Of a DNA stretch of 40,285 nucleotides, positions 1,836 through 36,593 are shown piece after piece. Positions within the stretch are counted from its first letter, which is position 1; each line of letters begins with the position of its first letter. This DNA is from Bacteroidaceae bacterium (GTDB taxonomy: Bacteria > Bacteroidota > Bacteroidia > Bacteroidales > Bacteroidaceae). The stretch lies in NCBI GenBank assembly GCA_017651245.1, contig JAGCDQ010000033.1, forward strand, positions 1 through 40,285, written 5' to 3'. The translations under genes and the position numbers were made by a program. The notes under the pieces were generated by a model. It made no database searches and was not told where the DNA came from. It was given only the letters and a program-made list of their open reading frames with translations.

Positions 1836-1863
1836 CTAAGCCCTAAACTCTCAACTCTTAACC
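1836..1863 (-). repeat. Heptad array upstream of the TPR gene
   Basis: Four 7-base units read on the minus strand, GGTTAAG then AGTTGAG, followed by AGTTTAG and GGCTTAG. The array ends one base before the ATG at 1834 and contains the stop codon of def (1858-1860). The period is exact while the units vary. Confidence 0.7.
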
Positions 1864-2418
1864 TCGATTTGGCTTGCACTTGTAATGTGCAGAGAACTTT
1901 CCCTTGCTCATCGCAACGAGCTTGTTCTTGATCATTTGCTTGCGGAAGGGAGAGAGACGGTCCACGAACATCTTGCCGTCTAGGTGGTCGTATTCGTGTT
2001 GGAACACGCGTGCCTCGAAGCCTTCAAGCCAACGCTCCTGCTCCTCGCCATTCTCGTCGAAGTAGTTGACGAGTACTTTGGCAGGACGCTTCACGCTCTC
2101 GTTGATGCCTGGAATGGAGAGACATCCTTCAGACATCGTGACGGTTTCTTCGCTCTCTTCGAGAATCTCAGGATTGATGAATGTATGACGATAGTCCTTG
2201 AACTGTGGCTCATCGTCGGCGAGGGCATCGAGGTCGATGATGAAGAGACGGATGGGCAGACCCACCTGAGGGGCAGCGAGCCCGACGCCTTCGGAACGCT
2301 CGAGGGTCTCAAACATGTTGGCGATTAACTCCTTGAGGTTTGGATATGCCTCGAAGTCAATGTCTTCGGCAACCTTTCTGAGAACGGGTTGCCCGAATAT
2401 GTACATGGGAAGAATCAT
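1858..2418 (-). CDS. def: Peptide deformylase
   Basis: Removes the N-formyl group from the initiator methionine of nascent proteins in the cytoplasm; a metal-dependent hydrolase. All three family motifs are present in order: GVGLAAPQ (residues 44-51), EGCLS (97-101, metal ligand Cys99) and HEYDH (141-145, metal ligands His141 and His145, catalytic Glu142). At 186 aa it has normal length. The start MILPMYIFGQPVLRK matches the usual Bacteroides N-terminus, which supports the ATG at 2418 over the internal Met5. It lies between ruvX and the TPR gene on the same strand. Both its upstream and downstream junctions are built of 7-base tandem repeats, and its stop codon lies inside the downstream array. 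Confidence 0.97.
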   Translation of the reverse strand: MILPMYIFGQPVLRKVAEDIDFEAYPNLKELIANMFETLERSEGVGLAAPQVGLPIRLFIIDLDALADDEPQFKDYRHTFINPEILEESEETVTMSEGCLSIPGINESVKRPAKVLVNYFDENGEEQERWLEGFEARVFQHEYDHLDGKMFVDRLSPFRKQMIKNKLVAMSKGKFSAHYKCKPNRG

Positions 2419-2423
2419 ATCAT

Positions 2424-2458
2424 TTACAATTTGACGATTTACGATTTACAATTTACAA
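2424..2458 (-). repeat. Heptad array between ruvX and def
   Basis: Five 7-base units on the minus strand: two perfect TTGTAAA copies, then TCGTAAA, TCGTCAA and ATTGTAA. It ends 5 bases before the def start codon. The first units also encode the last codons and the stop of ruvX (2446-2448). Confidence 0.75.
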
Positions 2459-2868
2459 TTTTTGCTTTGGAGGAAATCTTCCAAGATAATGGTGGCGCTG
2501 ATCTTGTCGACGAGTGCCTTGTCCTGTCGGGCTTTTTTGCCGATGCCGCTCTGGAGCATGGCCTGATGTGCCAAGACGGAGGTGAAACGCTCGTCGTAAT
2601 AGACAATGTCCTTGCCGGGGAAGAGTTTCTTCAGTCTGTTGAAGAATGGCTCGATGCGCTTCATGTTCTCGCTGTCCTCGCCGTTCATCTGAGTGGGTTT
2701 CCCGACGACGATGGTGCTGACGTCCTCCTTTGCCACATAATCCATGAGGAACTTCTCCAGTTCCTTGGTCTCGATGGTGGCAAGTCCGTTGGCAATCATC
2801 TGCAGGGTGTCGGTCACAGCGATGCCCGTGCGTTTCTTTCCGTAATCTATGGCGAGTATTCTTGACAT
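2446..2868 (-). CDS. ruvX: Putative pre-16S rRNA nuclease / Holliday junction resolvase (YqgF family)
   Basis: A small RNase H-fold nuclease of 140 aa, known for maturing the 5' end of 16S rRNA in E. coli and annotated as a Holliday junction resolvase-like protein. Visible motifs: ILAIDYGKKRTGIAVTD (residues 4-20, with the first catalytic Asp in the IDYG motif), VVGKPTQMNGEDS (mid) and YYDERFTSVLA (near residue 92), the usual YqgF signature order. The ATG at 2868 is the last three bases of a heptad repeat. The C-terminal KNCKL and stop are encoded by a second heptad array, so both ends of this conserved gene touch repeats. It follows lptD and precedes def. Confidence 0.93.
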   Translation of the reverse strand: MSRILAIDYGKKRTGIAVTDTLQMIANGLATIETKELEKFLMDYVAKEDVSTIVVGKPTQMNGEDSENMKRIEPFFNRLKKLFPGKDIVYYDERFTSVLAHQAMLQSGIGKKARQDKALVDKISATIILEDFLQSKNCKL

Positions 2869-2893
2869 AACTCTAAGCTATTAACTCTCAACT
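2866..2893 (-). repeat. Heptad array supplying the ruvX start codon
   Basis: Exactly four 7-base units on the minus strand. The first is AGTTGAG, the second AGTTAAT, the third AGCTTAG and the last AGTTATG, whose final ATG is the ruvX start. It fills nearly the whole gap between the lptD stop (2897-2899) and ruvX. Confidence 0.78.
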
Positions 2894-2896
2894 AAA

Positions 2897-5803
2897 TCAG
2901 TACCATTGGATGGAACTGGAGTAGCTGGATTTCTTGTCGTATTTGAGCGCATCGGTGAGGGTGCTTGCATTGGCACGCAGGGAGATGTGGTAACTGGTGT
3001 AGTTGCCAAACACGAGTCCGCAGGAGATGTTGAAGCAGTGCATGTCGCGTGAGATGTTCACGGTGGTCATGGATATCTTCTTCGTGGTGAAGTCCCATCC
3101 CGATGCAAAGTTGCAGTTCCAGTTGCTTGCCAACTTCAGGTTGCCCGAGAAGTTGAGGTTCTGGGTGAACGAGTAGGGATATCGCATGGTCTTGACGTTG
3201 ATGTCCTTGTTGCGGTCTTCATACATGGTGAGTCCGTAAGAGATGGAGAAGGACCAGGGTATCTGGAACTTCATATAGCCATCTGCATCCAGTCCGTCTT
3301 GAGAATCGTCTCTGTTCTTTCCCTGTTTGCCCGAACTGTCCATATTGGTCTCTAAATCATCCATCTCGTCCTCATCCTCTTCCTTGTTGACGCCATCCTG
3401 CTCGTCTTCGAGGTCTTTCCCTCGTCCAAAGAATCTCATGATACCCTCTTTTATCTTTCTGAACGACTGATTGTTGAAGGTGTAGGAGAGATTCTTCGAC
3501 ATACCTTGGAAACGTCCCCAACGTCCATACGACCATTCCGTGCGGTCGCCCACAACGACGTTGCCGTTTTTGTCAAATTCATAAGCGTAAGTCATGAACA
3601 CAGCACTCATGTTGAATGTGGTCTTTCCCCATTTCAGACGCAAACGTGTGGAGAGGTTTGACCAAGGTTGCCGTTCTGCCGCCATGTTGTAGGAGAGAGA
3701 GGCACCGAGTTCGTCAATGATACTGATTTTCTTGATGGAGTCGTTGCGCGCCTTGATTTTTGCCTCCACGTTGTTGGAGATACTGAAGCTGACTGCCCCT
3801 GTCTTGCCTATGCTGGGAGTTCCGTAGAGAGAACCCGTATAAGGAGAGTAGGGCACTTGGGTGACATTTCCGTCCTCGTCGGTTTTTGTGTAGGTCTTCC
3901 AATAGCCATATCTGCTATCACCGAAGTCTGGTGCATAGCTGAAGCTGACGCTGGGCGTGAAGACGTGACGCACCATCTGGAGTTTCTCTCCGAACACCTT
4001 GGGATTGGGTTTGTAAAAACCATAGAGCTTGGTGTTGGCAGAGAGCGAGAGGTTATAGTCGAACACGCGATTGAAGCCATAGACGGTGTCGCGCACCACC
4101 TGGTTGCGTCCTTCGTCCCAACTCTGAATGACCTTGTTGGTGTACCAACGCTCGGTATAGTTGAGCATCGGGGTGACGTTGATGTATTTCAGGATGTTGA
4201 ATGACGCAGAGATGGGAATGTTGTGCTTCATACCGTTCTTCCAGTCTTTCACCAGCGAGGAATGGAGTAGTTTGTCTTCCTTCGTGGTAATGGAATTGGA
4301 GAGTGTACCCGTGTATTTCATGCTGATTTTCTCATACCAGCGTTCCTTACCCACAACCACCTTGCGTTTGAAGGGATAGAAGGTGGAGAGTGACCACGAC
4401 ATGGACGGAAGAGTCAATGCGATTGTGGAGTCACGCATGTTTTGAGAGATATTCATGGAGCTGGACAGAGAAAGTCCCATTTTGCGGAAATTGTGAGAAT
4501 AGCTGACAGAAGAGGTGCGCGTGCTCTGCGAATAAGAGGTGGGGTTGTAGAGCGACGTGAGATTGTTTTTCTCGTAGGATTGTGTGGCAAAGTTCACACT
4601 GGCGGAGAAAGAACTATTGGGCGATGACTTAGGGTCTGTTCTGTGACTCCATTGCACCTTGAAGTTTTTCTGCACACTATAGTCGGGCATGTTTTTCTCA
4701 CCCTCTTTCGTCACTTGGTAATTGAAGTAGAAGTTGCCAGCATATTTGTAGCGTTTCTTGTAGGTGGTCTGTGTACCGACGCCCCATGAACCTTTGGTGA
4801 AAATCTCGCCGGTCACCTTCAGATCCATGTAATCGCTGATGGCAAAGTAATAGCCACCATCACGCAAATAGAAACCTCGGGTGAACTCATCGCCGTAGGT
4901 GGGCATGATGAAACCGCTGGAATAAGTGCTTGTGATGGGGAAATAGGCGAAGGGTAAAGCCAAAGGAAGTGGCACATCCTCCACCACGAGCCAAGCAGGT
5001 CCCGAGAAGACGCTTTTTCCTGGACGAACTTTGGCACGAGACATACGGATATAGAAGTGGGGGTGCTCCTCGTCGCAAGTGGTGTAAGTACCTCCACGCA
5101 GATAATATACACCTTCAGAGTCTTTCTTGGATTGTTCTGAGGTGAGGAAACCTTCTTCCTGCTCTGTGTAGATATTGGTGATGAAGCCTTTCTTCGTCTT
5201 GAAGTTGTAGGACATCGTTTCGGTCTTGTATTCGTCGCTTCCCTCCCTGAAGATAGGCTTGCCGTACTTGTTGCCGATGGAGTCGAGTCCATAGGTGGCA
5301 TGCACGATGGAGCTGTCCATGTTCATGTTGATGTTCTCTGAAGTGAGGTTGATGTTCTGGTACTTCACATCAGCATTGCCATACAGATAAGCCGTCTTGG
5401 TGCCCATGAAGAATGTCATGGAGTCTTTGGCTGTATAGACCACAGGTGCATCGAGCGCACTCTTCTTTTGTGTCCTGCGAATGGAATCCTCGGCAGCAGC
5501 CACAGAATCGTTCCATTGGATGGCTCTCGACTTGTTTGGCTCTATACCATGTTCGCGGTCAAAACGTGCCTTGAGGGAATCGAGGTTGAGCAGCAAGGAA
5601 TCTGACTCCGATATCGGTGTGGGAGTGCTTGTGCTGTCAGGGGTTTCTACGTCTTGAATGTCAAAGGTGTCCATGTCGGTGCTGTCAACAGCATGATGGT
5701 CGACAACTCGAGGTGATGTGCCGACCAATGGGAAGTTGAAAGCCGTCGTGGATAGTACGGTAATGAGTACGAGAAAAAACGCTATGAACCTTTGACTTCT
5801 CAT
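2897..5803 (-). CDS. lptD: Outer-membrane LPS assembly protein LptD (OstA-like)
   Basis: Inserts lipopolysaccharide into the outer leaflet of the outer membrane with LptE. In the 968 aa product: a hydrophobic export signal (MRSQRFIAFFLVLITVLSTTA), a Ser/Thr/Asp-rich linker (about 35-110), an OstA-type jellyroll (about 120-270, including YLYGNADVKYQNINLTSENI and GFLTSEQSKKDSEGVYYLRGG), then a long beta-barrel domain with alternating aromatic strands to the C-terminus. The FAYFPITSTYSSGFIMPTYG stretch is typical of Bacteroidetes LptD. An acidic low-complexity insert (about 795-838) sits within the barrel, probably in an extracellular loop. The start at 5803 is chosen because a strong promoter covers the twelve codons of the longer frame. 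It is the first gene of the lptD-ruvX-def-TPR operon. Confidence 0.9.
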   Translation of the reverse strand: MRSQRFIAFFLVLITVLSTTAFNFPLVGTSPRVVDHHAVDSTDMDTFDIQDVETPDSTSTPTPISESDSLLLNLDSLKARFDREHGIEPNKSRAIQWNDSVAAAEDSIRRTQKKSALDAPVVYTAKDSMTFFMGTKTAYLYGNADVKYQNINLTSENINMNMDSSIVHATYGLDSIGNKYGKPIFREGSDEYKTETMSYNFKTKKGFITNIYTEQEEGFLTSEQSKKDSEGVYYLRGGTYTTCDEEHPHFYIRMSRAKVRPGKSVFSGPAWLVVEDVPLPLALPFAYFPITSTYSSGFIMPTYGDEFTRGFYLRDGGYYFAISDYMDLKVTGEIFTKGSWGVGTQTTYKKRYKYAGNFYFNYQVTKEGEKNMPDYSVQKNFKVQWSHRTDPKSSPNSSFSASVNFATQSYEKNNLTSLYNPTSYSQSTRTSSVSYSHNFRKMGLSLSSSMNISQNMRDSTIALTLPSMSWSLSTFYPFKRKVVVGKERWYEKISMKYTGTLSNSITTKEDKLLHSSLVKDWKNGMKHNIPISASFNILKYINVTPMLNYTERWYTNKVIQSWDEGRNQVVRDTVYGFNRVFDYNLSLSANTKLYGFYKPNPKVFGEKLQMVRHVFTPSVSFSYAPDFGDSRYGYWKTYTKTDEDGNVTQVPYSPYTGSLYGTPSIGKTGAVSFSISNNVEAKIKARNDSIKKISIIDELGASLSYNMAAERQPWSNLSTRLRLKWGKTTFNMSAVFMTYAYEFDKNGNVVVGDRTEWSYGRWGRFQGMSKNLSYTFNNQSFRKIKEGIMRFFGRGKDLEDEQDGVNKEEDEDEMDDLETNMDSSGKQGKNRDDSQDGLDADGYMKFQIPWSFSISYGLTMYEDRNKDINVKTMRYPYSFTQNLNFSGNLKLASNWNCNFASGWDFTTKKISMTTVNISRDMHCFNISCGLVFGNYTSYHISLRANASTLTDALKYDKKSSYSSSIQWY

Positions 5804-5813
5804 AAAACGGGTG

Positions 5814-5844
5814 CAAAGGTACGAATAAGTGAGCACAATACAAA
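5814..5844 (-). promoter_or_regulatory. Promoter of the lptD operon
   Basis: On the minus strand TTTG (5844-5841), a 19-base spacer, then TAccTTTG (5821-5814), a full Bacteroidetes sigma-factor consensus. Transcription would start within a few bases of 5807, giving a nearly leaderless mRNA and fixing the lptD start at 5803. Confidence 0.85.
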
Positions 5845-5889
5845 GTAAAACTTGAAGTTTTAACTTTTATTGTCGAGCGAGAGTGCATT

Positions 5890-6426
5890 CTATCCAAACC
5901 TTTTAGACCATTTCACAAATCGTTCCACGCCATCGTCGCCAAATTTGGAAAGGGAATGGATGGCTTGCTCCAGCGTCTTTTCTGTGGTGAGTTTGGTCTT
6001 CGAGAAGAATTTGTCGGCATAGCAGATGATTTGTTCCTCAATGGTTTCAGGCAACAAATCCTGATGAGGAACAGGTAGGTTCTGTTTCTCGATTTCTTGC
6101 AAGGAAAGTCCCGCGCCCGTATGTCTCTCACACACTCTGGCGTGACGAGGGAAACCCTCAGCACGAAGCAATTCCGCACCAATGGGACCATGACAAATGT
6201 AAGGTTCTGTGCCAAAGCAATAGATGCCGGCTGCATCGCATCGGAAAATGCCGATGTCATGCAACATCGATGCTTCTTCCACAAATTGACGGTCGGCATT
6301 CAGTTCGGGGTGCTGATCTACAATGGCAAGTGCCTTGTCTGCTACTTTTCGGCTGTGCACCATCAAGATGTGCTTCAGCTCGTTGTCTTCAGGGTAATAT
6401 TTGTCGATGATGGCTTGATAGTTCAT
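5890..6426 (-). CDS. HD-domain phosphohydrolase
   Basis: 178 aa soluble protein of the HD superfamily of metal-dependent phosphohydrolases. Visible metal-binding residues: an early His in HILMVHSRKVAD (about residue 24), the paired His-Asp in MLHDIGIF (56-57), a further His in YICHGPIGAEL (about 79) and a late Asp in ICYADKFFSK (about 137), the expected H...HD...H...D order. The substrate is unknown; family members act on nucleotides, cyclic dinucleotides or related phosphoesters. It overlaps the end of trmN6 by four bases (ATGA), so the two are translationally coupled. It ends before the lptD promoter. The family call is firm; a specific function cannot be given. Confidence 0.85.
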   Translation of the reverse strand: MNYQAIIDKYYPEDNELKHILMVHSRKVADKALAIVDQHPELNADRQFVEEASMLHDIGIFRCDAAGIYCFGTEPYICHGPIGAELLRAEGFPRHARVCERHTGAGLSLQEIEKQNLPVPHQDLLPETIEEQIICYADKFFSKTKLTTEKTLEQAIHSLSKFGDDGVERFVKWSKRFG

Positions 6427-7142
6427 AGATAGAAGTCTTGCGTTAATTGTGCGTATTCAGGAGAACGGTTGTTGTTGGCATCGTAGAGCGTCAGCGTGTT
6501 GGTCTCAGAAGGCTGCATCTTCGTGCTGAACTCCAGTAGTACCCGATTGAAGGATTTCCTTTCTGTGGAACGAATGTTCAGCCGACGAGTTAGGTAGAGT
6601 CTGTTCGCTACACAAATGCTGATGAAATCGGCAGCACTTTGGTGAGGAATGATGACAGAAAAAAGTCCTTCTTCCGTCAATAATTTTGTAGCATTTTCGA
6701 CCAAGATTTCGAAGGGTAAAGAGGTGGTGTGACGAGCCTTGTCTCTCGCCTGATTACCTCCTAAAGTGTCTTCTGTATAAAATGGTGGGTTTGAAACGAT
6801 TAAATCAAATTGTCTAGAGAAAGAGTTGATGTCTGAAAAATCTTGTTTCTCTATCGAAATTCGTGTCTTGAAAGGTGTGCTTTCCACGTTCTCTTTTGCC
6901 TGCTCCAGAGAAGCCTCGTCAATGTCAATTCCCACGATGTTGGCAGCAGGAAATCTTTGTGCCAGCATCAGGGCAATCAACCCTGTTCCTGTACCCACAT
7001 CCAGTATCCTGAATGGGGTGGAAATCGTGTTGAAATTCGAGCCTGCCCACGCCCCAAGCAACACACCATCCGTCCCGACCTTCATGGCAGAACGGTCGTG
7101 GCGAATGGTGAATTGTTTGAAACGAAAATCGGGAGTAGCCAA
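6423..7142 (-). CDS. trmN6: tRNA1(Val) A37 N6-methyltransferase (TrmN6/YfiC type)
   Basis: SAM-dependent methyltransferase modifying adenine 37 next to the anticodon of tRNA-Val. Motif I ILDVGTGTGLIALMLA (46-61) binds SAM, an acidic GIDIDE follows (71-76), and the catalytic NPPF of N6-adenine methylases is at 118-121 in LIVSNPPFYTED. The start appears to be TTG at 7142: the conserved family N-terminus FRFKQFTIRHDRSAMKVGTDG begins at residue 6, and the next Met is inside it. Just upstream lie three heptad repeats. It follows uxaC by 32 bases and overlaps the HD gene by ATGA. A TTG start after a repeat array may keep its translation low. Confidence 0.9.
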   Translation of the reverse strand: MATPDFRFKQFTIRHDRSAMKVGTDGVLLGAWAGSNFNTISTPFRILDVGTGTGLIALMLAQRFPAANIVGIDIDEASLEQAKENVESTPFKTRISIEKQDFSDINSFSRQFDLIVSNPPFYTEDTLGGNQARDKARHTTSLPFEILVENATKLLTEEGLFSVIIPHQSAADFISICVANRLYLTRRLNIRSTERKSFNRVLLEFSTKMQPSETNTLTLYDANNNRSPEYAQLTQDFYL

Positions 7143-7147
7143 GTGCG

Positions 7148-7168
7148 TTTACTGTTTACAGTTTAGTG
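7148..7168 (-). repeat. Heptad array upstream of trmN6
   Basis: Three 7-base units on the minus strand, CACTAAA then CTGTAAA then CAGTAAA, ending 5 bases before the TTG start of trmN6 and filling most of the uxaC-trmN6 gap. Confidence 0.65.
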
Positions 7169-7174
7169 GGCTGG

Positions 7175-8593
7175 TTAGAACTGGAAATAGTTCTTGGCGT
7201 TGTTGTAGGAGATGTCCTCAATCATCTGGTTGACACGCTCAGCCTCATAGCCCACGTAAGGCACTTCGCCGTTCTCGATGTCTGTAGCAACGAGGTTGCA
7301 GAGAATACGACGGAAATACTCGTGACGAGGGTAGGAGAGGAAAGAGCGGGAGTCTGTGAGCATACCCACGAAACGACTCAGCAATCCAAGCAATGAAAGG
7401 GCATTCATCTGCTTCGTCATGCCGTCCTTCTGGTCGAGGAACCACCAACCTGAACCCCACTGAATCTTGCCAGGGATAGAACCATCTTGGAAGTTGCCCA
7501 ACATCGTGGCAAGCACCTCGTTGGCACAAGGATTGAGGTTGTAGAGGATGGTCTTTGCCAGTTTCCCTTCCGCATTCAGACGGTCGAGGAACTTTGAGCA
7601 CTTCTTGGCAGTGTTGAACTCGCCGATGGAATCGAAGCCCGTGTCAGGACCTATCAGCTTGAACATCTTAGAGTTGTTGTCGCGGATGGCGCCATAGTGG
7701 AACTGCTGTGCCCATCCTGCCTCAGCATCCTGAACGCCAAAGATGAACATCATCGCAGACTTGAACCTCAGGATTTCCTCTTGGGTCAGTTCCTTGCCAC
7801 CATACACCTTGTCGAAGATGGCCTTGATTTCAGCTTCCGTGTAGTCTTCTGCATAGAACTCTTCGATGCCGTGGTCGGAGAGTTTGCAACCCATTGACGC
7901 AAAGAAATCGTGACGTGCCTGGATGGCATCGATGTAGTCGTTGAAGTTATTGATGGACTTACCACTCACTTCAGAGAGCTTGTCCACGTATGCCTTGAAG
8001 TTGGCTGGCACTTCCACTGCCATTGCCTTGTCTGGACGCCATGTGGGGAGCATCTTGGTTTCCATCGTGGGGTCAGCAGCCACCTGCTTGTGGTATTCCA
8101 ATGAATCCACAGGGTCATCTGTTGTGCAGACCACCTTCACGTTGTAGTGCTTCATCAAGCCGCGTGGCGTGAACTTGGGATCATTCTTGATTTGTTCGTT
8201 ACATTCATCGTAAATCTCACGGGCATTCTCTGGATTCAAGGTCTTGTCAATGCCAAAAGCAGTCTTCAATTCCAGGTGAGTCCAGTGATAGAGCGGATTG
8301 CGGAACGTGTAGGGAACGGTCTCTGCCCACTTCTCGAACTTCTCCCAGTCAGAAGTGTCCTTGCCTGTGCAGAAACGCTCAGCCACACCATTGCTGCGCA
8401 TGGCTCTCCACTTGTAGTGGTCGCCACCCAGCCAAATCTGCGTGATGGATTCAAAACGCTTGTTCTCAGCCACCATCTGTGGCACCAAATGACAATGATA
8501 GTCGATGATCGGCATCTTTGCCGCATGTTCGTGATACAACTTCTGTGCAGTTTCACTCTGCAACAGGAAGTTTTCGTCCATAAAAGGTTTCAT
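7175..8593 (-). CDS. uxaC: Glucuronate (uronate) isomerase
   Basis: Converts D-glucuronate to D-fructuronate and D-galacturonate to D-tagaturonate, the first cytoplasmic step of hexuronate breakdown from pectin and glucuronoxylan. 472 aa, the usual family length. The amidohydrolase-like metal motif DYHCHLVP is at residues 31-38 (His33, His35), with CTTDDPVDSLEYH and LNPCANEVLATMLGNFQDG further on and SFLSYPRHEYFRRILCN near the C-terminus, all typical of UxaC. No other uronate gene is nearby; downstream are trmN6 and an HD protein, probably co-transcribed. Start ATG at 8593; a second Met at residue 5 is also possible. Two promoters appear upstream. Confidence 0.96.
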   Translation of the reverse strand: MKPFMDENFLLQSETAQKLYHEHAAKMPIIDYHCHLVPQMVAENKRFESITQIWLGGDHYKWRAMRSNGVAERFCTGKDTSDWEKFEKWAETVPYTFRNPLYHWTHLELKTAFGIDKTLNPENAREIYDECNEQIKNDPKFTPRGLMKHYNVKVVCTTDDPVDSLEYHKQVAADPTMETKMLPTWRPDKAMAVEVPANFKAYVDKLSEVSGKSINNFNDYIDAIQARHDFFASMGCKLSDHGIEEFYAEDYTEAEIKAIFDKVYGGKELTQEEILRFKSAMMFIFGVQDAEAGWAQQFHYGAIRDNNSKMFKLIGPDTGFDSIGEFNTAKKCSKFLDRLNAEGKLAKTILYNLNPCANEVLATMLGNFQDGSIPGKIQWGSGWWFLDQKDGMTKQMNALSLLGLLSRFVGMLTDSRSFLSYPRHEYFRRILCNLVATDIENGEVPYVGYEAERVNQMIEDISYNNAKNYFQF

Positions 8594-8629
8594 GAATGAT
8601 AAATTGTTTGGTTAAATGTTTTGTTGTTG

Positions 8630-8661
8630 CAAATGTAGGGATTATTTTCTCGCCTCGCAAA
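8630..8661 (-). promoter_or_regulatory. Proximal promoter of uxaC
   Basis: On the minus strand TTTG (8661-8658), a 20-base spacer, TAcaTTTG (8637-8630). It gives a leader of about 30 bases before the ATG at 8593. Confidence 0.78.
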
Positions 8662-12451: not shown

Positions 12452-13354
12452 ATGATACGTAACAAATTCAAGGGGTTGGGCATTGCGCTCGTCACTCCTT
12501 TCACAAAAGAAGGTCAGGTGGACTTCACCGCACTCCGCCGCCTGCTCGATTATCAACTCTCCAACGGCATCGACTTCATCTGCCTGTTGGGCACGACGGC
12601 TGAAACCCCAACGCTATCTGCCGAGGAACGCCAGCAGGTGAAAGACCTCGTCGTGGAGAAAGTCAACGGACAGGTGCCAATCCTCATGGGATGCGGCGGC
12701 AACAACACCGCAGCGGTGGTGGAACAAATCCAGACCGGCGACTTCAAGGGCATCGAGGGCATCCTCAGCGTTTGTCCTTACTACAACAAGCCCTCGCAGG
12801 AAGGACTCTATCAGCACTTCAAGGCGATTGCTGCAGCGGCAGCCACGCGCAACCTCTCCGTGGTGCTCTACAATGTGCCTGGACGTGTGGGCGTGAACAT
12901 GACCGCTGAGACCACGCTCCGTCTTGCCAATGAATGCGAGAACATCGTTGCCATCAAGGAGGCTTCGGGCAACTTCACCCAGATTGACGACATCATCAAG
13001 AACAAGCCCGACAACTTCGACGTCATCTCAGGCGACGACGGCATCACCTTCCCGCTCATCACGCTCGGAGCCGTGGGTGTCATCTCCGTCATCGGCAATG
13101 CGCTGCCCAAGGAGTTCAGCCGCATGGTGCGCCTCGCCCTGAATGGTGACTACCAGAACGCCCTCACCATCCACCACAAGTTCACCGAGCTGTTCAAGCT
13201 CCTCTTCGTCGATGGCAACCCTGCCGGCGTGAAGGCGATGCTCAATTCCATGGGACTCATCGAGAACGAACTCCGTCTCCCGCTTGTCCCATCGCGCATC
13301 TCCACTTTCGAGAAGATTTCCGCCATCATCAAGGAACTCAACATCAAGTGCTGA
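12452..13354 (+). CDS. dapA: 4-hydroxy-tetrahydrodipicolinate synthase
   Basis: Condenses pyruvate with aspartate semialdehyde, the committed step to diaminopimelate and lysine, and so feeds peptidoglycan synthesis. 300 aa, a TIM-barrel of the DapA/NAL aldolase family. Key residues: the GTTAE phosphate/carboxylate-binding loop (47-51), YYNKPSQEG (110-118; Tyr111 fits the Tyr that crosses into the partner active site), YNVPGR (140-145, catalytic Tyr140 and substrate-binding Arg145), and the Schiff-base Lys169 in AIKEASGNF. This set favours true DapA over neuraminate lyase. Last gene of the glnS unit, closed by a hairpin terminator. Confidence 0.96.
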   Translation: MIRNKFKGLGIALVTPFTKEGQVDFTALRRLLDYQLSNGIDFICLLGTTAETPTLSAEERQQVKDLVVEKVNGQVPILMGCGGNNTAAVVEQIQTGDFKGIEGILSVCPYYNKPSQEGLYQHFKAIAAAAATRNLSVVLYNVPGRVGVNMTAETTLRLANECENIVAIKEASGNFTQIDDIIKNKPDNFDVISGDDGITFPLITLGAVGVISVIGNALPKEFSRMVRLALNGDYQNALTIHHKFTELFKLLFVDGNPAGVKAMLNSMGLIENELRLPLVPSRISTFEKISAIIKELNIKC

Positions 13355-13383: not shown

Positions 13384-13435
13384 ATCAAGGAGATAAATGA
13401 AGAGCCTGTGCAGCAATCACGTTGCACAGGCTCTT
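13384..13435 (+). terminator. Terminator hairpin after dapA, part of a 49-base duplicated repeat
   Basis: AAGAGCCTGTGCA (13400-13412) pairs with TGCACAGGCTCTT (13423-13435): a perfect 13-bp stem with a 10-base loop, followed by TC-rich sequence. Positions 13384-13432 are identical over 49 bases to 18702-18750, which includes 16 bases upstream of the stem. Confidence 0.85.
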
Positions 13436-13455
13436 TCACCCTTCACCCTTCATTA
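13435..13455 (+). repeat. Heptad array after the dapA terminator
   Basis: Two TTCACCC units then TTCATTA, directly followed by an ATG (13456) that opens a 24-codon frame ending at 13530. The frame has no recognisable product and I do not call it as a gene. The rest of the dapA-13630 gap holds only the promoter at 13569. Confidence 0.6.
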
Positions 13456-13629: not shown

Positions 13630-14229
13630 ATGAACACAACTGACGAACTGGATATCATCGCCCATATACGGGGTGAAGTGCAGAGCAGCAAGGAGCTTAC
13701 AGGCGAGAATTTGTTTCTCGCTTGGGGCTACCCTACGGCTTTCTTCCTGTTGGTGGAGTTCGTGGCACTCATCCTGTGGAATAAGAACTGGTGCGAGTGG
13801 ATATGGATGGGCATTCCTCTGGTGGGTGCTCCGCTGATGGTTTACTTCCTGCACAAGGACTACGAGCGCACGGGGAGCCGCACGCTGGAGCAGAACGTCA
13901 TCCTGCGGATGTGGATCTATGTGGGATTTGTCAGCTGCGTGGGTGGCGCTTCCTTGGGCTTTGCAGGCGTGTTCGAGCAATGTTACTGCATGTTCCAGGG
14001 CTTGCTCATCGGCATGGGCTGCTTCCTCACGGGGCTCATCCTTCGTTACCGTGCCAAAGTGGTATGTGGCATCATCGGTTCGGCATTGTCGTTCCTTCCC
14101 CTCTTCTTTCAGGGTGAATACTGGCATTGGCAGCTGCTCATCGCTGCCGGGGTCACCATCATTGCCTTGGTGATTCCTGGACATCTTTTCCGCAACTATG
14201 TAAAACAACAAACGCAAGCAAGCTTATGA
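13630..14229 (+). CDS. Multi-pass inner-membrane protein paired with a regulator
   Basis: 199 aa. After a polar N-terminus (about 1-30) come five or six hydrophobic segments: AFFLLVEFVALILW (about 36-50), IWMGIPLVGAPLMVYFL (about 58-74), MWIYVGFVSCVGGASLGFAGVF (about 95-116), MFQGLLIGMGCFLTGLIL, VVCGIIGSALSFLPLFF and WQLLIAAGVTIIALVIPGHLF. I recognise no domain. Gene pairs of a small membrane protein and a MarR-like winged-helix protein are common in Bacteroidetes, and this one overlaps its regulator by ATGA, so the two are made together. It might be a membrane partner or target of the regulator; that is inference. Confidence 0.7.
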   Translation: MNTTDELDIIAHIRGEVQSSKELTGENLFLAWGYPTAFFLLVEFVALILWNKNWCEWIWMGIPLVGAPLMVYFLHKDYERTGSRTLEQNVILRMWIYVGFVSCVGGASLGFAGVFEQCYCMFQGLLIGMGCFLTGLILRYRAKVVCGIIGSALSFLPLFFQGEYWHWQLLIAAGVTIIALVIPGHLFRNYVKQQTQASL

Positions 14230-14561
14230 GTTTCAAGTTTCAAGTCATCAATCCCCTGCTGCACAGCGACCTTCGTCTGAAGATCATGGTGGCGCTCGAC
14301 TCGCTCGACAGTGCCAACTTCATGTATCTGTGTAAAATTACGGAGTCCACGAGGGGAAATCTCAGTGTCCAAATCAGGATTCTGCAGGAAGCAGGCTATC
14401 TGGAAGTGACCAAGACGGGCATCGGACGGTTTGGCTACACCGTGTGCCGCATCACTTCCAAGGGCAAAGAGGCTCTCCGTGCCTATGAAGACGGGCTTCG
14501 GAAACTCTTTTCACAGGAAGTGCCGGCACAGGAGGAAGAGCCCTTGTCGTCGGCAGGGTGA
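14226..14561 (+). CDS. Winged-helix transcriptional regulator
   Basis: 111 aa. LLHSDLRLKIMVALDSLDSANFMYLCKITESTRGNLSVQIRILQEAGYLEVTKTGIGRFGYTVCRITSKGKEAL is a winged helix-turn-helix of the MarR/ArsR-like 'HTH_34' type: recognition helix near GNLSVQIRILQEAGYL (about 39-54), wing near KTGIGRFGYTVCRIT (about 58-72). It probably binds DNA as a dimer and represses its own promoter or nearby genes; the ligand is unknown. The start at 14226 overlaps the stop of the membrane protein gene (ATGA); a longer frame from 14127 is ruled out because it would lie wholly within that gene. The C-terminal tail is Glu-rich. Confidence 0.85.
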   Translation: MSFKFQVINPLLHSDLRLKIMVALDSLDSANFMYLCKITESTRGNLSVQIRILQEAGYLEVTKTGIGRFGYTVCRITSKGKEALRAYEDGLRKLFSQEVPAQEEEPLSSAG

Positions 14562-18894: not shown

Positions 18895-18915
18895 CTTTAA
18901 CCTTTAACCGTTAAA
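18895..18915 (-). repeat. Heptad array upstream of the smalltalk gene
   Basis: Three 7-base units (on the plus strand CTTTAAC twice, then CGTTAAA). On the minus strand the array ends 3 bases before the smalltalk ATG. It overlaps the stop of the upstream glycine-rich frame (18911-18913). Confidence 0.65.
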
Positions 18916-19223
18916 TGGTTCCGTCCCCTTGGTCGTCACCGCCACCGTTGTCACCGCCAGTGTTGCCACCCGTGTTGCCACCGTTGTCTCCGCCAGTGTC
19001 TCCGCCAGTGTTGCCACCCGTGTTGCCGCCAGTGTTTTCGTTTTCGTTACCGTTTTCGTTGCCACCACCACCAGACACCCCAACTCCCGACAATCCAACA
19101 CCTGACCCCGACAATGGCGGTGGTGGCGACACGCCAACCCCGACACCCGACCCTGACCCGAACAACGGCGGCGGCGACAATGGCGGAGGAGGAGACAATG
19201 GCGGCGGCGAAGGAGTTTTTTGA
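18911..19223. pseudogene. Glycine-rich coding debris: two protein tails facing each other
   Basis: The left part (about 18911-19075), read on the minus strand, encodes an Asn/Asp/Gly tail (repeats of GGNTGGNTGGD ending QGDGTI, stop at 18911). The right part (about 19066-19223), read on the plus strand, encodes PTPDPDPNNGGGDNGGGGDN ending GEGVF (stop at 19221). Each looks like the low-complexity tail carried by Bacteroidetes HU-family proteins, which commonly precede smalltalk genes, but no HU domain is found on either strand. I read this as remnants joined by rearrangement, though a short functional glycine-rich peptide is not excluded. Confidence 0.4.
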
Positions 19224-19420
19224 ATTGAAAATTGAAAATTATTGCGGCAAGCCGCCGAAGGGAAAATAGGTAAAAATAGGGAAAAATAAATAAAAATCCT
19301 TTTTTTATATCTTTACTTGTTTTTTTTATTTTTTTTCCTTCGGCGCCAACGGCGCAATTAAAGGTCAAAGGCTAATTGAAAATAGAGAATTGAAAATTGA
19401 AGGTCTAAGGACCAAGAGGT
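19223..19420. repeat. MITE-like composite repeat: heptads, hairpin, AT core, hairpin, heptads
   Basis: Left end: AATTGAA heptads (19223-19240) then a hairpin GCGGC-AA-GCCGC (19244-19255) flanked by ATTGC and CGAAGG. Right end: the inverse order, CCTTCGG flanking GCGCC-AAC-GGCGC, then a run of 7-base units through about 19420 (AATTGAA three times, then GGTCTAA, GGACCAA and GAGGTAA). The core (about 19262-19336) is almost pure A/T. The two ends (19241-19261 and 19337-19358) are imperfect inverted repeats. No transposase or credible gene lies inside. Confidence 0.55.
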
Positions 19421-27404: not shown

Positions 27405-27948
<544 letters not shown>

Positions 27949-30108: not shown

Positions 30109-30113
30109 TCCAT

Positions 30114-30171
30114 AACACTTTTTAAGTGTTTATTAGAGAGCGAGAAAGTAGTCAATGATTGCTTTCTCGCT
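30114..30171 (+). terminator. Tandem hairpins after the nucleoside hydrolase gene
   Basis: First AACACTT-TTT-AAGTGTT (30114-30130), then AGCGAGAAAG (30139-30148) pairing with CTTTCTCGCT (30162-30171) and followed by TTCTT. The second is the likelier terminator. Confidence 0.8.
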
Positions 30172-30222
30172 TTCTTAAATGTTATATTTTGTTAAATTAT
30201 TATAGAAAGTAATCCTTGTTTA

Positions 30223-30254
30223 TTGATTGTATAAGTAAATAATGTGTATATTTG
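30223..30254 (+). promoter_or_regulatory. Promoter of the LruC lipoprotein gene
   Basis: TTG (30223-30225), a 21-base spacer, TAtaTTTG (30247-30254) followed by C. Leader of about 45 bases. Confidence 0.68.
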
Positions 30255-30306
30255 CAAAACATAAGCACTAATAAACATAATTTAACCTCAAATCCTATAT
30301 CGACGT

Positions 30307-32892: not shown

Positions 32893-32907
32893 TCATATAT
32901 GATACTT

Positions 32908-32946
32908 AAAAAAGGATGGCGTTCCGAAAGAATGCCATCCTTTTTT
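32908..32946. terminator. Bidirectional terminator between convergent genes
   Basis: AAAAAAGGATGGC (32908-32920) pairs with GCCATCCTTTTTT (32934-32946), with an inner TTC/GAA stem. A-run on one side and T-run on the other, so it works for the LruC gene (plus) and the peptide transporter gene (minus). Confidence 0.9.
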
Positions 32947-32979
32947 ATTTGGATATAATTGATGTGTCAAGTAATGTTT

Positions 32980-34599
32980 TTATTCCACTCCTTTCATCAT
33001 TTTCTTCAGCAATGGGCAGAGGCAGAAGAGGAGGATTGCTGCTGCTCCGGCCATGACAGCGAAGAGGGTGAAGAAGTCAGTCAAATTGGTGATTTGATAA
33101 CCGAGGAATGAGTGGACGGGTTGCTCGGCTGTTGGTAACAGAGTGGCGAGTTTGCCGGCAAGGATGTTGCTGGCTGCATTGCTCATAAACCATACACCCA
33201 TCAAGAGTGATGCAAGATGGATGGGGGAAAGTTTATTCACCATTGACAGACCGATAGGAGAAAGTGAAAGCTCACCAATCGTGTGGATGAAATAGAGGGC
33301 AAACAGCCACCACATAGATGCTTTCTGACCATCTTCAAGCCCATTTGTGCCGAAAGCAATGATAGCATAGCCAATGGCAAGAAGGAGGAGACCTATTGCT
33401 TGCTTGACGGGTGATGCAGGCTCCAGCTTATGCTTGGCAAGTGTTTCCCAAAGGGTCGCCATGATAGGTGCAAAAGCAACGACAACGATTGGGTTGATAG
33501 ATTGGAACCAAGTTGTAGGCATCTCCCAATTACCAATCATTCTATCACACTGCTGGTCTGCGAAAATAGTCAATGATGAACCTGCTTGTTCGAATGCACT
33601 CCAGAAGAAGATGACGAACACGGCAATGATGTAGATGACGCCAATGCGCTGTTTCTCCACATTAGAAAGTCCCCTGTCTGTAATAATGAAGACGGGAAGA
33701 GCAATAGAAATGGCGTAGATGGCGGCAGAGATATAGTCGTTGAAGTTGTCCACATCCAGCGAGAACACCACGAAAAGGACAATGGCACCCAAGAGGCAAC
33801 CCCAGAGCCGGAGTGGGGAGTTCTTGGTCTTCGTCGCATTCTGAACTGCATTTTCTTCCTCTTTCTGCTGGTCTTTCTGTTGCATCAGCTGACTTTGAGA
33901 GGGTGGCAAACCGATGGCAAGACCTTCTGGCGTATTGAGAAATTTCTTCTTGCCCATCATAAACACGACCACCGATACAATCATGGCAACTCCTGCACAG
34001 AAGAAGCCCCACTTGAAGGCACCTGGATTCATCCAGTTTCCATCGGCGGCAACAGAACCACACACCAATGGGGCAATGAGTGCGCCAGTGTTGATACCCA
34101 TGTAGAAGATGGTGAAGGCAGAATCCTTACGATGATCTTGTGGTGCATAGAGGTCACCCACCATCGTGGAGATGTTTGGCTTAAAGAAGCCATTGCCAAT
34201 GATGAGTGCGCCAAGACCAATGAACATGAGCGTCATTGCCAGCCCGTTGTTCACGGAGTCGCTGATGACACCTCCTGTGGCTGGGTCGGAGAAGATGCTC
34301 TGTTGTACTACACATGCTGAAGCGAACATGAGAAACTGGCCTATTGCCATCACGATTCCGCCAAAGATGATACTACGACGGTTTCCCCAATAGCGGTCAG
34401 CAATGTAGCCACCCAGCAAGGGAGTTAGATAGACAAGTCCCGTGTAAGAACCATAGATCTGACTTGCGTCAGCGCTGTTGAAGAATGCTGCCACGAGGTA
34501 GAGCACGAAGAGTGCCCTCATGCCGTAGTAGCTGAAACGCTCTGCCATTTCTGTCACGAAAAGCAGGTAGAGTCCCTTGGGATGTCCTTGTTGTGCCAT
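32980..34599 (-). CDS. POT-family proton-coupled peptide transporter
   Basis: 539 aa inner-membrane carrier importing di- and tripeptides with protons (MFS superfamily, PTR2/POT). The proton-coupling motif ExxERFxYYG is intact as EMAERFSYYG (17-26). About 12-14 hydrophobic segments, with LTPLLGGYIADRYWGNRRSIIFGGIVMAIGQFLMFA (about 54-90) carrying the MFS loop, and GNGFFKPNISTMVGDLY (about 134-150), the POT FxxPNIxT signature. A polar Gln/Lys/Glu-rich loop (about 230-258) sits between the two halves, as in bacterial members. It starts 9 bases after yidC and is probably co-transcribed with it; its 3' end uses the shared terminator. Confidence 0.95.
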   Translation of the reverse strand: MAQQGHPKGLYLLFVTEMAERFSYYGMRALFVLYLVAAFFNSADASQIYGSYTGLVYLTPLLGGYIADRYWGNRRSIIFGGIVMAIGQFLMFASACVVQQSIFSDPATGGVISDSVNNGLAMTLMFIGLGALIIGNGFFKPNISTMVGDLYAPQDHRKDSAFTIFYMGINTGALIAPLVCGSVAADGNWMNPGAFKWGFFCAGVAMIVSVVVFMMGKKKFLNTPEGLAIGLPPSQSQLMQQKDQQKEEENAVQNATKTKNSPLRLWGCLLGAIVLFVVFSLDVDNFNDYISAAIYAISIALPVFIITDRGLSNVEKQRIGVIYIIAVFVIFFWSAFEQAGSSLTIFADQQCDRMIGNWEMPTTWFQSINPIVVVAFAPIMATLWETLAKHKLEPASPVKQAIGLLLLAIGYAIIAFGTNGLEDGQKASMWWLFALYFIHTIGELSLSPIGLSMVNKLSPIHLASLLMGVWFMSNAASNILAGKLATLLPTAEQPVHSFLGYQITNLTDFFTLFAVMAGAAAILLFCLCPLLKKMMKGVE

Positions 34600-34608
34600 G
34601 ATATGAGG

Positions 34609-36498
34609 TTATTTTTGATTGTTCCGTTCTTGTTGCTGCTTCAGAATCTCCAGTTGCTTTTCCTGCATAGCTTGCAGACGTTCCATGATACTGGAGGTTT
34701 TCTTCTTGTCGCCAGCATTTGCTTTGCGTTCAGCATGACGCAGTTCCAGTTTTCGGAGCAGCTCATCGTCATTCGTTGTCTTGCGCAGGAACCACATCAT
34801 GAGAATGCTAATGAGACCTGAGATGAAATAGTACCAGTTCAGACCTGCGCTATAGCTGTTGAATGAGAAGAAGAAGATAAGAGGCATCAAATAGGTCATC
34901 CACTTCATCATGCTCATCTGTTGTTGCTGCTCAGGAGTCATGGCATATTGCTGCTGACGCTGGGTGATGACTGAGTTTGCCACAGTTGATAGACACCACA
35001 AGATACAGAAGAGTGACAGGTGGTCACCGATGCCCCAAATGTTGAAACCCCAGTTGATGATGTCATCGTAAGTGGAAAGGTCGTCTGCCCAAAGGAATGA
35101 CTCACCACGCATCTCAATATAGTTAGGGATGAAATTGAACAATGCAATCCAGATCGGCATCTGGATGATCATCGGGAGGCAGCCACCCATTGGGCTCACC
35201 CCGTATTCGCTGTACAGCTTCATCACCTCCTGCTGTTTCAGCATGGCGTCTTCTTTCTTTGGATATTTTGCGTTGATTTCGTCCATCTTGGGGCGCAGCA
35301 CACGCATATTGGCTGACGAGAGATAAGATTTCTTCATCAACGGGAACACGATGACTTTCACAATGATCGTGAGCAATAGGAGTACGATACCCATGTTCAG
35401 ACCCAAACCTGTGAGAAAATCGAACGCATAGAGGAAGATGAAACGGTTAATCCATTTGATAACAGGCCAACCCATATACACCAACGACTGGAGGTCGAGG
35501 TCGCCATTCGATGCCAATAACTGTTCGTTGTCCTTCAGCGTCGAGAACTTGTTGGGGCCCATGTATAGATGGAAACTCGTTGGTTTCACACCTTTCGTGT
35601 CGAAATCTGTCGTGAATGTGGTCTTGTATGTTTTCAAGTAGCCAGAACCCTTCTCCAGTTGCTGAGACGACATGTAATTGACAGCAATGGGATAGTCTGC
35701 CACCAGCGTTTGGCTAAAAAACTGAGTCTTATAGGAAATCCACTTTATCCTTTCTTCAAATTCATCTTCTTCCTCATCACCACCAGTTGTGGAAAGTTCA
35801 TGTGTCTCACCCTCCACATCGCGATAGGTTACGGTTGAGTAGCGTGTCTCAAAGTCATATCCTTTCTCTTGCTGCTTCATGTCTTCCGACCACTCAATCT
35901 GCATCGTCTTTGTACTTGAAGGGAAGAAACCCTCCAATCCTGTCGCTTTCACATCCATGTCGAGGATGTATGAATTGGGTTTCAGCGAATAGATAATGTC
36001 CAGAGAACCTCCACCTACAGGCAAATGCATGGTCACACCTGTCTTTGTTACTTCAGTTGGGGTGAAAAACAATTCATCTGTTACGATGTTGGCGGTTTTT
36101 CCATCCAACATGAAACGCATATTTTGTTCTTTGTTCTCGAAGAACACCACATTGCCGCCCTGACGACTCTTGTAGGTGCTGTCCTTCAATTCCACCTTCT
36201 GCATCTGGCCACCTTTGTTCGTGAGCGTGACCTTTAGCAATTCGTTCTCAATGATTGTTGTGCTTGTGTTTCCTTGACGGGCTTCAAATAGCGGATTGAG
36301 CGTGTCTGTCAGTTCTTCCGCTTTCTTGGCTTGTTCCTTTTGTTTTACCTTAGCTTCCTTTTGTGCCTCTACCTGAGCGATGGAATCCAACACCAATTGC
36401 TCTGCTATCTGTTCGCGACGGGCATAATTCTCATATGCCATAAAGCCGAAAACCACTAATGCCATCAGCACAAAAGCCGTTAACGTGTTCTTGTTCAT
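34609..36498 (-). CDS. yidC: Membrane protein insertase YidC
   Basis: 629 aa Oxa1/YidC insertase that helps place proteins in the inner membrane. N-terminal helix at about 5-23 (LTAFVLMALVVFGFMAYENYA), then a large periplasmic beta domain (about 60-345), then the conserved five-helix core: FLTGLGLNMGIVLLLLTIIVKVIVFPLMKKSYLSSANMRVLRPKM (about 365-410), VSPMGGCLPMIIQMPIWIALFNFI, and SLFCILWCLSTVANSVITQRQQQ. The groove Arg of E. coli YidC (Arg366, in IVRGIMYPL) is replaced by Lys in IVKVIVFPL, conserving the charge. The C-terminal tail is Lys/Gln-rich, as expected for ribosome contact. First gene of a two-gene unit. Confidence 0.97.
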   Translation of the reverse strand: MNKNTLTAFVLMALVVFGFMAYENYARREQIAEQLVLDSIAQVEAQKEAKVKQKEQAKKAEELTDTLNPLFEARQGNTSTTIIENELLKVTLTNKGGQMQKVELKDSTYKSRQGGNVVFFENKEQNMRFMLDGKTANIVTDELFFTPTEVTKTGVTMHLPVGGGSLDIIYSLKPNSYILDMDVKATGLEGFFPSSTKTMQIEWSEDMKQQEKGYDFETRYSTVTYRDVEGETHELSTTGGDEEEDEFEERIKWISYKTQFFSQTLVADYPIAVNYMSSQQLEKGSGYLKTYKTTFTTDFDTKGVKPTSFHLYMGPNKFSTLKDNEQLLASNGDLDLQSLVYMGWPVIKWINRFIFLYAFDFLTGLGLNMGIVLLLLTIIVKVIVFPLMKKSYLSSANMRVLRPKMDEINAKYPKKEDAMLKQQEVMKLYSEYGVSPMGGCLPMIIQMPIWIALFNFIPNYIEMRGESFLWADDLSTYDDIINWGFNIWGIGDHLSLFCILWCLSTVANSVITQRQQQYAMTPEQQQQMSMMKWMTYLMPLIFFFSFNSYSAGLNWYYFISGLISILMMWFLRKTTNDDELLRKLELRHAERKANAGDKKKTSSIMERLQAMQEKQLEILKQQQERNNQK

Positions 36499-36547
36499 AT
36501 TTTATTTTATATTTTCGTTTGGAATCTTAAATAATACAAAAATCGTG

Positions 36548-36555
36548 CAAAGATA
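36548..36555 (-). promoter_or_regulatory. -7 box of yidC
   Basis: On the minus strand TAtcTTTG followed by C, about 50 bases before the ATG at 36498. The -33 position falls in the heptad array at 36562-36593. Confidence 0.7.
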
Positions 36556-36561
36556 CGAAAA

Positions 36562-36593
36562 AGTTGGGAGTTGAGAGTTAGGAGTTAGGAGTT
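36562..36593. repeat. Heptad array inside a divergent promoter
   Basis: About 4.6 units of AGTTRRG on the plus strand: AGTTGGG, then AGTTGAG, then AGTTAGG twice, then AGTT. It occupies most of the 44 bases between the yidC -7 box (minus) and the -7 box at 36600 (plus), covering both -33 positions. Confidence 0.85.

Follow-up and report, generated by a model that had tools for sequence, protein, structure and literature searches.

The window analysed here, the whole stretch of 40,285 nucleotides (nt) that forms positions 1 to 40,285 of contig JAGCDQ010000033.1 (C24) in the assembly GCA_017651245.1 of a Bacteroidaceae bacterium, carries a series of short tandem arrays with a step of seven nucleotides. 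The units of these arrays are shared between loci of the genome, the unit families are amplified in a lineage-specific manner, copies lie inside protein genes, and families are swapped for one another at the same site between related genomes. Some arrays differ between genomes by exact 7-nt steps, two very small elements lodged in arrays are positioned at TT, and one empty site of such an element was found. As an explanation we propose, with a probability of about 0.5, a satellite-like library of heptamer families, together with some octamer families, that is dispersed through the genome and copied into tolerant sites.

The genome of the window (G000) comprises 2.83 Mb in 77 contigs and is 86% complete. 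A sample of 759 kb in 41 pieces, corresponding to 27% of the 2.83 Mb, was searched for arrays, and relatives were read in part. Two of the 41 pieces (L014 and L020) had been chosen since their contigs already showed an array; 64 of the 79 heptamer arrays of the sample are left after removal of these two pieces and the window. Gene ends, starts and coding calls were obtained with our own simple caller based on codon usage, which overlooked at least one gene of the window (6423-7142). The closest genome compared, G026, is treated as a sister species. The best relatives by RuvX are mainly metagenome assemblies of rumen and gut Bacteroidales, and almost all relatives are draft metagenome assemblies, in which arrays could be collapsed or broken at contig ends. 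Whole-genome searches for unit doublets and for the cores of the small elements covered 41 genomes, including G000 and G026.

Period 7 compared with other periods

When mismatches were allowed, the numbers of arrays in the sample at periods 4 to 12 were 1, 2, 3, 79, 14, 10, 3, 9 and 11. Period 7 has 43 exact runs of at least 11 matches. The other periods in the range 2 to 13 have 0 to 7 each, period 14, twice the heptamer step, has 23 and period 15 has 13; a single third-order Markov control yielded 0 or 1 at each period. Inside the window, eight segments score at least 9 at period 7, as compared with a mean of 0.22 and a maximum of 3 in 100 second-order Markov simulations, and the numbers of such segments at periods 4, 5, 6, 8, 9, 10, 11 and 12 are 0, 0, 3, 1, 2, 1, 0 and 3. 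The arrays of the sample divide into intergenic and coding ones as 63 and 16 for period 7, 14 and 0 for period 8, 9 and 0 for period 11, and 0 and 11 for period 12. With their excess over the neighbouring periods and their mainly intergenic location, the period-7 arrays qualify as heptanucleotide simple sequence repeats (SSR) or short tandemly repeated repetitive (STRR) sequences. A preliminary description of the window had expected period 7 to exceed periods 5, 6, 8 and 9 genome-wide, which was borne out beyond the window. Its notion of a strict 7-base step was overstated, as the sample also holds 14 intergenic octamer and nine intergenic 11-mer arrays: 7 is the dominant step, and 8 and 11 are minor intergenic steps.

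Intergenic arrays of the named relatives number 27 at period 7 versus 7 at period 8 (17 loci, RuvX 84-96%) and 49 versus 21 (63 loci, RuvX 63-72%). Period 8 was considered as the main step of the relatives and rejected, octamers exceeding heptamers in one of seven sampled relatives, namely G036 (10 octamers versus 4 heptamers in 117 kb); G012 has no octamers and six heptamers in 90 kb. At the ruvX locus of a more distant relative (L100:9892-11430), five octamer arrays and no heptamer array with a score of at least 11 are present. An 11-nt tandem repeat, TACATCTCCAA, at L005:2700-2798 is among the nine intergenic period-11 arrays of the sample.

Shared unit families

The 79 arrays reduce to 30 distinct consensus units, the commonest being AAACCTC (15 arrays), AAATCTC (7), AAAATTG (6), AAAAGTG (6), AAAGGTT (5) and AAAGGTC (5). 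The same unit recurs in 187 pairs of arrays from different loci, against a mean of 11.6 and a maximum of 24 when the letters were shuffled within units, and the most frequent 14-mers of the sample derive from the heptamer arrays. Several multicopy unit families are present in one genome, as is typical of STRR sequences. The preliminary description had supposed that period 7 arises regardless of content. This does not hold for the units, which form a small set of shared, lineage-specific families; it holds in part in that related genomes do carry different families at the same site.

The GRTTTGA doublet occurs 116 times in G000, 175 times in G026, 25 times in G001 and at most seven times in each of the other 38 genomes, and the ARTTGAR doublet, with matches in 37 of the 41 genomes, marks a heptamer family found across most of the genus. 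The reversed patterns used as controls for these two doublets are heptamer families themselves (AGTTTRG and RAGTTRA types) and are not neutral. For the octamer doublet ARTTGAAR, whose reversed control is low (0 to 6), there are 131 matches in G012, 111 in G036, 110 in G005, 70 in G026 and 55 in G000, and zero in 16 of the 41 genomes.

Neighbouring arrays of the same family (periods 7 and 8) at most 120 nt apart form 29 inverted versus 22 direct pairs, and all but two of the inverted pairs begin with their purine-rich arm (27 of 29). A common loop in the inverted pairs was discarded as a candidate, the 29 loops being mostly dissimilar; several of them carry a GGCTRACG...CGCATGG-type motif (GGCTRACGCGATG...CGCATGG-like).

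Comparison with the sister genome

Within 162 kb of aligned blocks between G000 and G026, 12 arrays of each genome are anchored on both sides, and all others were left out. Five of the 12 anchored G000 arrays have the same length in G026, and two differ by 28 nt (-7 and +35) and by -7 nt. Sites that differ cleanly in copy number are multiples of 7 nt apart in length, unlike those with other length differences. Ahead of truA the two genomes have arrays of the same length with four differences, all of them at unit position 2 or 5, and the array within TruA is identical. In the PriA linker, AGTTGAG units in G000 stand opposite GGTTTGA units in G026 with no change in length.

One coding loop, in a pair of contigs selected since both carry small elements, holds a GGTTTGA array together with the small element core 1 (see below) in G000 and a GTTGACT array in G026. 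This pair is 98.4% identical over 2,258 columns, with a net difference of 21 nt, and in both genomes the reading frame stays open through the loop. Elsewhere in the same contig pair, G026 is longer by 89 nt at a site of the second element, core 3. Since 89 is not divisible by 3 and the called frames end differently, the 3' end of that gene is uncertain. A loop or junction with an array in one species can carry a different family in a sister species or lack an array altogether.

Arrays inside protein genes

Sixteen of the 79 arrays lie in 14 called genes, each in a stop-free reading, and two of the 16 share one low-scoring gene (L002). Ten of the 14 array-bearing proteins were compared with Pfam; nine of them match (GDC-P, PseudoU_synth_2, Queuosine_synth, PseudoU_synth_1, PriA domains, ACPS, GH115, an ABC protein of ABC-F type and RecO_C) and one has no match.

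At the RecO site, the length is 24 residues in 20 of 30 loci, 25 in one and 32-40 in nine, G000 included, and G000 exceeds G026 by 14 residues (42 nt). Another heptamer family is found at this site in G022, and three other loci (L223, L224 and L229) have GC-rich inserts of the CCCCTTGGGGGAGTTGGAGGG type with peptides like SSLPLGGVGG. A GC-rich insert similar to those in RecO is present in the variable loop of TruA in L205, and TruA of G026 (L219) has an extra in-frame insert of unrelated sequence, RMSSEGHHACMNGRVAREEGVAT, that is absent from G000, as seen in a comparison of 10 of the 30 TruA loci. The arrays of PriA and TruA take up a variable stretch of similar length across orthologues. In GcvPA, a LNDLKTKLAQ-type stretch gives way to a LSALNSQLSSL-type one in five of 12 loci, namely the four closest in sequence and G001, which is the least similar; at most one residue is gained. 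Because, among these four sites, RecO shows a clear net gain and the arrays of GcvPA, PriA and TruA replace a stretch of similar length, some in-gene arrays appear to be insertions and others replacements.

A TTAACGATAAC module lies directly before heptamer arrays at three in-gene sites (L030:8980, L037 at about 11030 on the minus strand, and L300:11257), a placement that suggests composite modules.

Variation of units within families

Counted by unit position from 1 to 7, non-consensus letters of the GGTTTGA family number 1, 42, 4, 0, 17, 2 and 1 in G000 (26 arrays, 100 units) and 1, 27, 4, 0, 7, 1 and 2 in G026 (11 arrays, 60 units). The in-gene units of this family have the same two variable positions (18 units in G000 and 13 in G026), and protein selection is not an obvious cause of the variation there, because successive heptamers are read in different frames. 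AATTGAA varies chiefly at position 7 (21 of 46 units), AAGTGAA at position 1 (7 of 27 units) and GGTTAAA at positions 6 and 7 (16 and 12 of 46 units). For AGTTGAG and GTTTAGA, two of the eight families in G000, variation is not clearly concentrated.

Positions 2 and 5 of the GGTTTGA family are unlinked (Fisher p 0.78; 0.65 for both genomes), neighbouring units agree at position 2 in 39 of 111 cases as compared with 48.1 in order-shuffled arrays (28 of 2000 as low), and the arrays are homogeneous at position 2 (chi-square 24.9, 33 degrees of freedom). Simple slippage does not predict such a pattern, since the main family varies at positions 2 and 5 without positive correlation between neighbours. 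A thoroughly mixed library, a loosely read template and a constrained motif would each fit the variation of the main family, and the tests do not separate these. When all families are taken together, units lying close to one another resemble each other more than distant ones do (slope 0.157 versus 0.079 with shuffled order, 1 of 500 as high), a result that includes arrays which switch family along their length, such as L005:194-252.

Small elements within arrays

Immediately behind a TT, arrays can hold one of two tiny dispersed elements, 19 nt and 33-34 nt long. The core of the first, GGCTMCGCCGAGCTRAAGG (core 1, at most one mismatch), is found in 28 of the 41 genomes, and its reversed control gave 0. 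TT stands before and after it in 40 of 40 distinct sites, of which some came from a pattern ending in TT, so that the downstream TT is partly built in and the upstream TT is not. At one site G026 carries core 1 and G000 has exactly 21 nt less, with one TT left. This empty site comes from a comparison of 19 hits, seven of them alignable, that represent five distinct sites: two are shared, one is empty and two have other changes. Outside G000 and its kin, core 1 is mostly not within heptamers (20 fetched loci).

The core of the second element, CTTGGCRAGCCAAGCGTGCTAAAGATACGAT(T)AA (core 3, at most two mismatches), is present in 12 of the 41 genomes. All 26 distinct contexts, which include at least one orthologous pair, have TT before it and G after it; the G might equally belong to the element. 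By eye, core 3 contains a CTTGGC/GCCAAG inverted repeat, and the local family usually resumes in phase on both sides; the families around it are GGTTTGA, AGTTGAG, the octamer AATTGAAG, a TTGTAAA type and CAACTGT. Among the features of small dispersed repeats (SDR), which also include a common secondary structure with compensatory changes, two are found here, namely very short multicopy sequences embedded in heptamer arrays and an insertion polymorphism with an empty site, the latter at one clean site of core 1.

A Y1 transposase was considered as a mobiliser, as in systems of the repetitive extragenic palindromic (REP) type, and was set aside: for Y1_Tnp, the domain of REP-associated tyrosine transposases (RAYT), G000 gave a match only below the cut-off (21 versus 23 bits) and G026 none, an absence that is not certain because both genomes are 86-89% complete. 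AA or TT occurs in 79 of 79 G000 units, against 61.7 in shuffled ones. Its presence in every unit was likewise dropped as a general rule, since it is broken in six of 147 arrays of relatives.

Position relative to genes

Array density per kb is 1.92 in convergent gaps, 0.92 in codirectional gaps, 0.53 in divergent gaps and 0.024 in coding sequence. In the sampled genome, arrays hug upstream stop codons, not start codons. Twenty-five of the 42 codirectional intergenic arrays begin at most 10 nt from the upstream stop. With random placement inside these gaps 17.9 would be expected, and none of 2000 such placements reached 25. By contrast, 15 of the 42 end at most 10 nt from a start (16.6 expected) and 6 at most 5 nt from it (11.9 expected). 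Where a gap exceeds its array by at least 40 nt (23 gaps), eight arrays are within 10 nt of stops and three within 10 nt of starts, with 1.7 expected each. Stop codons are contained in 23 of 38 units in the sense direction (23.1 in shuffled units) and in 25 of 38 in the antisense direction (18.0 in shuffled units); among 7-mers of codirectional gaps, a pool from which array-bearing gaps were filtered imperfectly, the proportions with a stop are 0.39 sense and 0.37 antisense.

The clustering of array ends at start codons predicted by the preliminary description thus failed on the sample. Of the five minus-strand arrays that it had placed 0-5 nt from a start codon, four do lie there, next to the starts of a TPR protein gene (1834), def (2418), ruvX (2868) and a methyltransferase gene with a TTG start (7142), and no supported gene stands behind the fifth (18895-18915). 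The operon junctions of the window appear start-adjacent because arrays fill very short gaps.

Possible origin of the arrays

According to the explanation that we favour, each lineage would amplify a few unit families, and arrays would be copied or rewritten into tolerant places, such as the 3' ends of genes, operon gaps, convergent gaps and variable stretches of protein genes, where only open-frame versions would survive. An array in place would gain and lose whole 7-nt units and could be replaced by one of another family, and the very small elements of 19 and 33-34 nt would also lodge in arrays directly after TT. Copying may proceed via template switching or via ectopic gene conversion from one array to another, with short stretches of common homology as the starting point, and in-register exchange would maintain the period. 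Several results weigh against this explanation. A donor array was found for no swap, five of the anchored G000 arrays differ from their G026 counterparts by amounts that are not multiples of 7 (-3, -19, 25, -11 and 1177 nt), and degeneracy at two positions without heterogeneity between arrays needs a well-mixed library. Moreover, unit order is not common to different loci in the main family (21 arrays; common stretch 347 versus 380 with shuffled order), in a test for which, other than for the position-variation tests, the unit pattern was fixed beforehand. This argues against the copying of whole arrays, and whole-array copying with preserved unit order was dropped as a candidate.

The preliminary description had suggested one mechanism behind the period-7 sequence, either slippage or a templating enzyme. 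Plain replication slippage at each site, by which a local 7-mer is duplicated and then diverges, accounts for the clean 7-nt copy changes and for the likeness of neighbouring units over all families, and heptamers are over-represented in many bacteria, according to work cited in PMC4692102. However, slippage does not account for units common to different loci, lineage-specific families and same-site swaps, nor for variation in the main family that is limited to two fixed positions and uncorrelated between neighbours; it is already disfavoured and, in our view, quite improbable. An enzyme similar to a reverse transcriptase or telomerase, which would extend a TT end reiteratively on a short, loosely read template, is retained as an unlikely rival. 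Other templates would give other families, and the 19- and 33-nt elements could, with the same small likelihood, be longer products of the same process. Such an enzyme would explain why main-family units look like independent draws from GRTTKGA in homogeneous arrays with unlinked positions 2 and 5 and no positive neighbour correlation, why all G000 units contain AA or TT and both small elements follow TT, and why the same site is rapidly rewritten. It fits less well with the six arrays of relatives that lack AA and TT, with the unconcentrated variation of AGTTGAG and GTTTAGA and with the greater likeness of neighbouring than of distant units over all families; neither an enzyme nor a template was found, and no search aimed at reverse transcriptases was made. 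The idea extended to an active 'writer' that rewrites gene gaps and variable protein-gene stretches in place, with a species-specific template and step (7 or 8), is also one to which we give little credence.

The units could instead be binding sites of a DNA- or RNA-binding protein, kept by selection with degenerate positions, so that the arrays act on the expression of neighbouring genes. The fixed and free positions of the units and the proximity of arrays to gene ends are consistent with this, and MacGregor (2015, PMC4679880) proposes binding sites in the case of TAACTGA arrays. It is nevertheless doubtful, given that in-gene arrays of the same family share the two free positions (the 18 units of G000 and 13 of G026 mentioned above), that sister species swap families at the same site and that no clustering at start codons exists. 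All-frame stop cassettes are very improbable. As neither 7 nor 8 is a multiple of 3, arrays of stop-bearing units would end translation in all frames, in agreement with the beginning of arrays near upstream stops and with the higher frequency of stops in units (23 and 25 of 38) than in gap 7-mers. There is, however, no preference for the sense strand, where the count equals that of shuffled units, and with this negative strand test the candidate was rejected.

Relation to known repeat systems

The closest known system is that of the cyanobacterial STRR sequences with embedded SDR. Elhai et al. in 2008 and older STRR papers reportedly described such heptamer repeats in Nostoc punctiforme and its relatives, the embedded elements reportedly being nested in some cases. 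Several heptamer families per genome and tiny embedded dispersed elements are common to both systems. Unlike the cyanobacterial repeats, the present ones belong to another phylum, have other sequences and lie in many housekeeping genes; in addition, octamers are amplified in part of the relatives, and one family can take the place of another at orthologous sites. Rickettsia palindromic elements are palindromic, have a defined sequence and lie in frame inside unrelated protein genes. The arrays are likewise tolerated in frame inside unrelated protein genes, but they are short tandem heptamers that swap families.

TAACTGA direct repeats occur, according to MacGregor (2015, PMC4679880), in Beggiatoaceae, Cyanobacteria and five Bacteroidetes, mostly just upstream of starts. 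Heptamer arrays adjacent to start codons, of which the preliminary description knew no case with a variable unit, are therefore already on record, there with one fixed unit. That study agrees with our findings in the period of 7, in a mostly intergenic position near genes with some copies in open reading frames in the stop-free direction, and in the presence of other heptamers alongside, there in Bacteroidetes. It differs in describing a single fixed unit and sets upstream of starts, whereas 30 consensus units are found here, none of the 79 sampled arrays has the TAACTGA unit, and arrays do not cluster at starts (15 of 42 versus 16.6). The GGGAATC and GGGGA(C/T)T heptamers, which Rehm (2015, PMC4692102) described in Xanthomonas and Nostoc, are similar in being dispersed, in forming inverted pairs and in varying in length and sequence at shared junctions; they are G-rich and quadruplex-forming, whereas the arrays studied here are A+T-rich with few G runs. 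Over-representation of heptamers was reported by Mrazek (2007, as cited in PMC4692102), whose conjecture that about 7 nt interact with DNA polymerase is quoted in both PMC4679880 and PMC4692102. BrickBuilt, a miniature inverted-repeat transposable element (MITE) of Porphyromonas gingivalis with a 23-nt minisatellite, is also a tandem repeat on a dispersed element in the order Bacteroidales; in PMC4596501 it is described with a 23-nt unit, always intergenic and with a leader and tail, in contrast to the arrays described here. A description of heptamer families in rumen Bacteroidales was not found in the open-licence literature, which is weak evidence of absence.

If our explanation is correct, a group of gut bacteria would keep rewriting its gene gaps and the variable parts of essential proteins with a few seven-letter words, quickly enough to differ between species with nearly identical flanking DNA. 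New protein loops and new spacing between genes would arise in this way, unseen by ordinary annotation. It would also provide a comparative system for asking why 7 nt is the preferred bacterial tandem step, be it through slippage, recombination or a template, in which swaps, copy steps and position-wise degeneracy could be counted in dozens of related genomes, including some that also use a step of 8. Should the writer exist, a telomerase- or retroelement-like process would act inside coding genes of a bacterium.

Arrays in the window

All nine arrays of the preliminary description were recovered at or close to the places it had given them, and a tenth was added, an AGTTTCA array (14229-14245, plus strand) at the 3' end of the gene at 13630-14229. 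The first genes of the window code for a TPR protein, def, ruvX, lptD, a methyltransferase and uxaC. On the minus strand, a degenerate array of the AGTTGAG/GTTTAGG type (1836-1863) takes up the whole interval from the def stop codon to the start of the TPR protein gene, and its version in G026 is almost the same, with a 1-nt gap. A TTGTAAA/TCGTAAA array (2422-2461, minus strand) lies between ruvX and def, 5 nt off the def start; the site in G026 has an additional GGTTAGC/GGTTAGA stretch of 25-26 nt, which is not a multiple of 7. The degenerate AGTTGAG array at 2866-2893 (minus strand) fills the gap between lptD and ruvX and is longer by exactly 7 nt in G026, and other species have different units, or octamers, at this junction. 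Both degenerate arrays (1836-1863 and 2866-2893) are missing from the list of Tandem Repeats Finder at score 30. The CAGTAAA/CTGTAAA array between uxaC and the methyltransferase gene (7147-7168, minus strand) is kept in G026, and the GGTTAAA-family array at 18895-18915 (minus strand) is intergenic.

On the plus strand, a TTCACCC array (13435-13455) adjoins a hairpin with the arms AAGAGCCTGTGC/GCACAGGCTCTT (by eye) downstream of the gene at 12452-13354, and two AATTGAA arrays follow at 19223-19240 and at 19370-19420 (core 19374-19401). The AGTTAGG/AGTTGAG array at 36562-36593 (plus strand) occupies a divergent gap and has on either side TAnnTTTG-like motifs that face outward (by eye), which we take to be the -7 element of Bacteroidetes promoters. 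An octamer tandem repeat, TGTCCCTT, is located at 39256-39286. In the G000 sample, a repeat containing GATTTGCTTTCAAATTAGTATCTTT has eight occurrences and resembles a clustered regularly interspaced short palindromic repeat (CRISPR).

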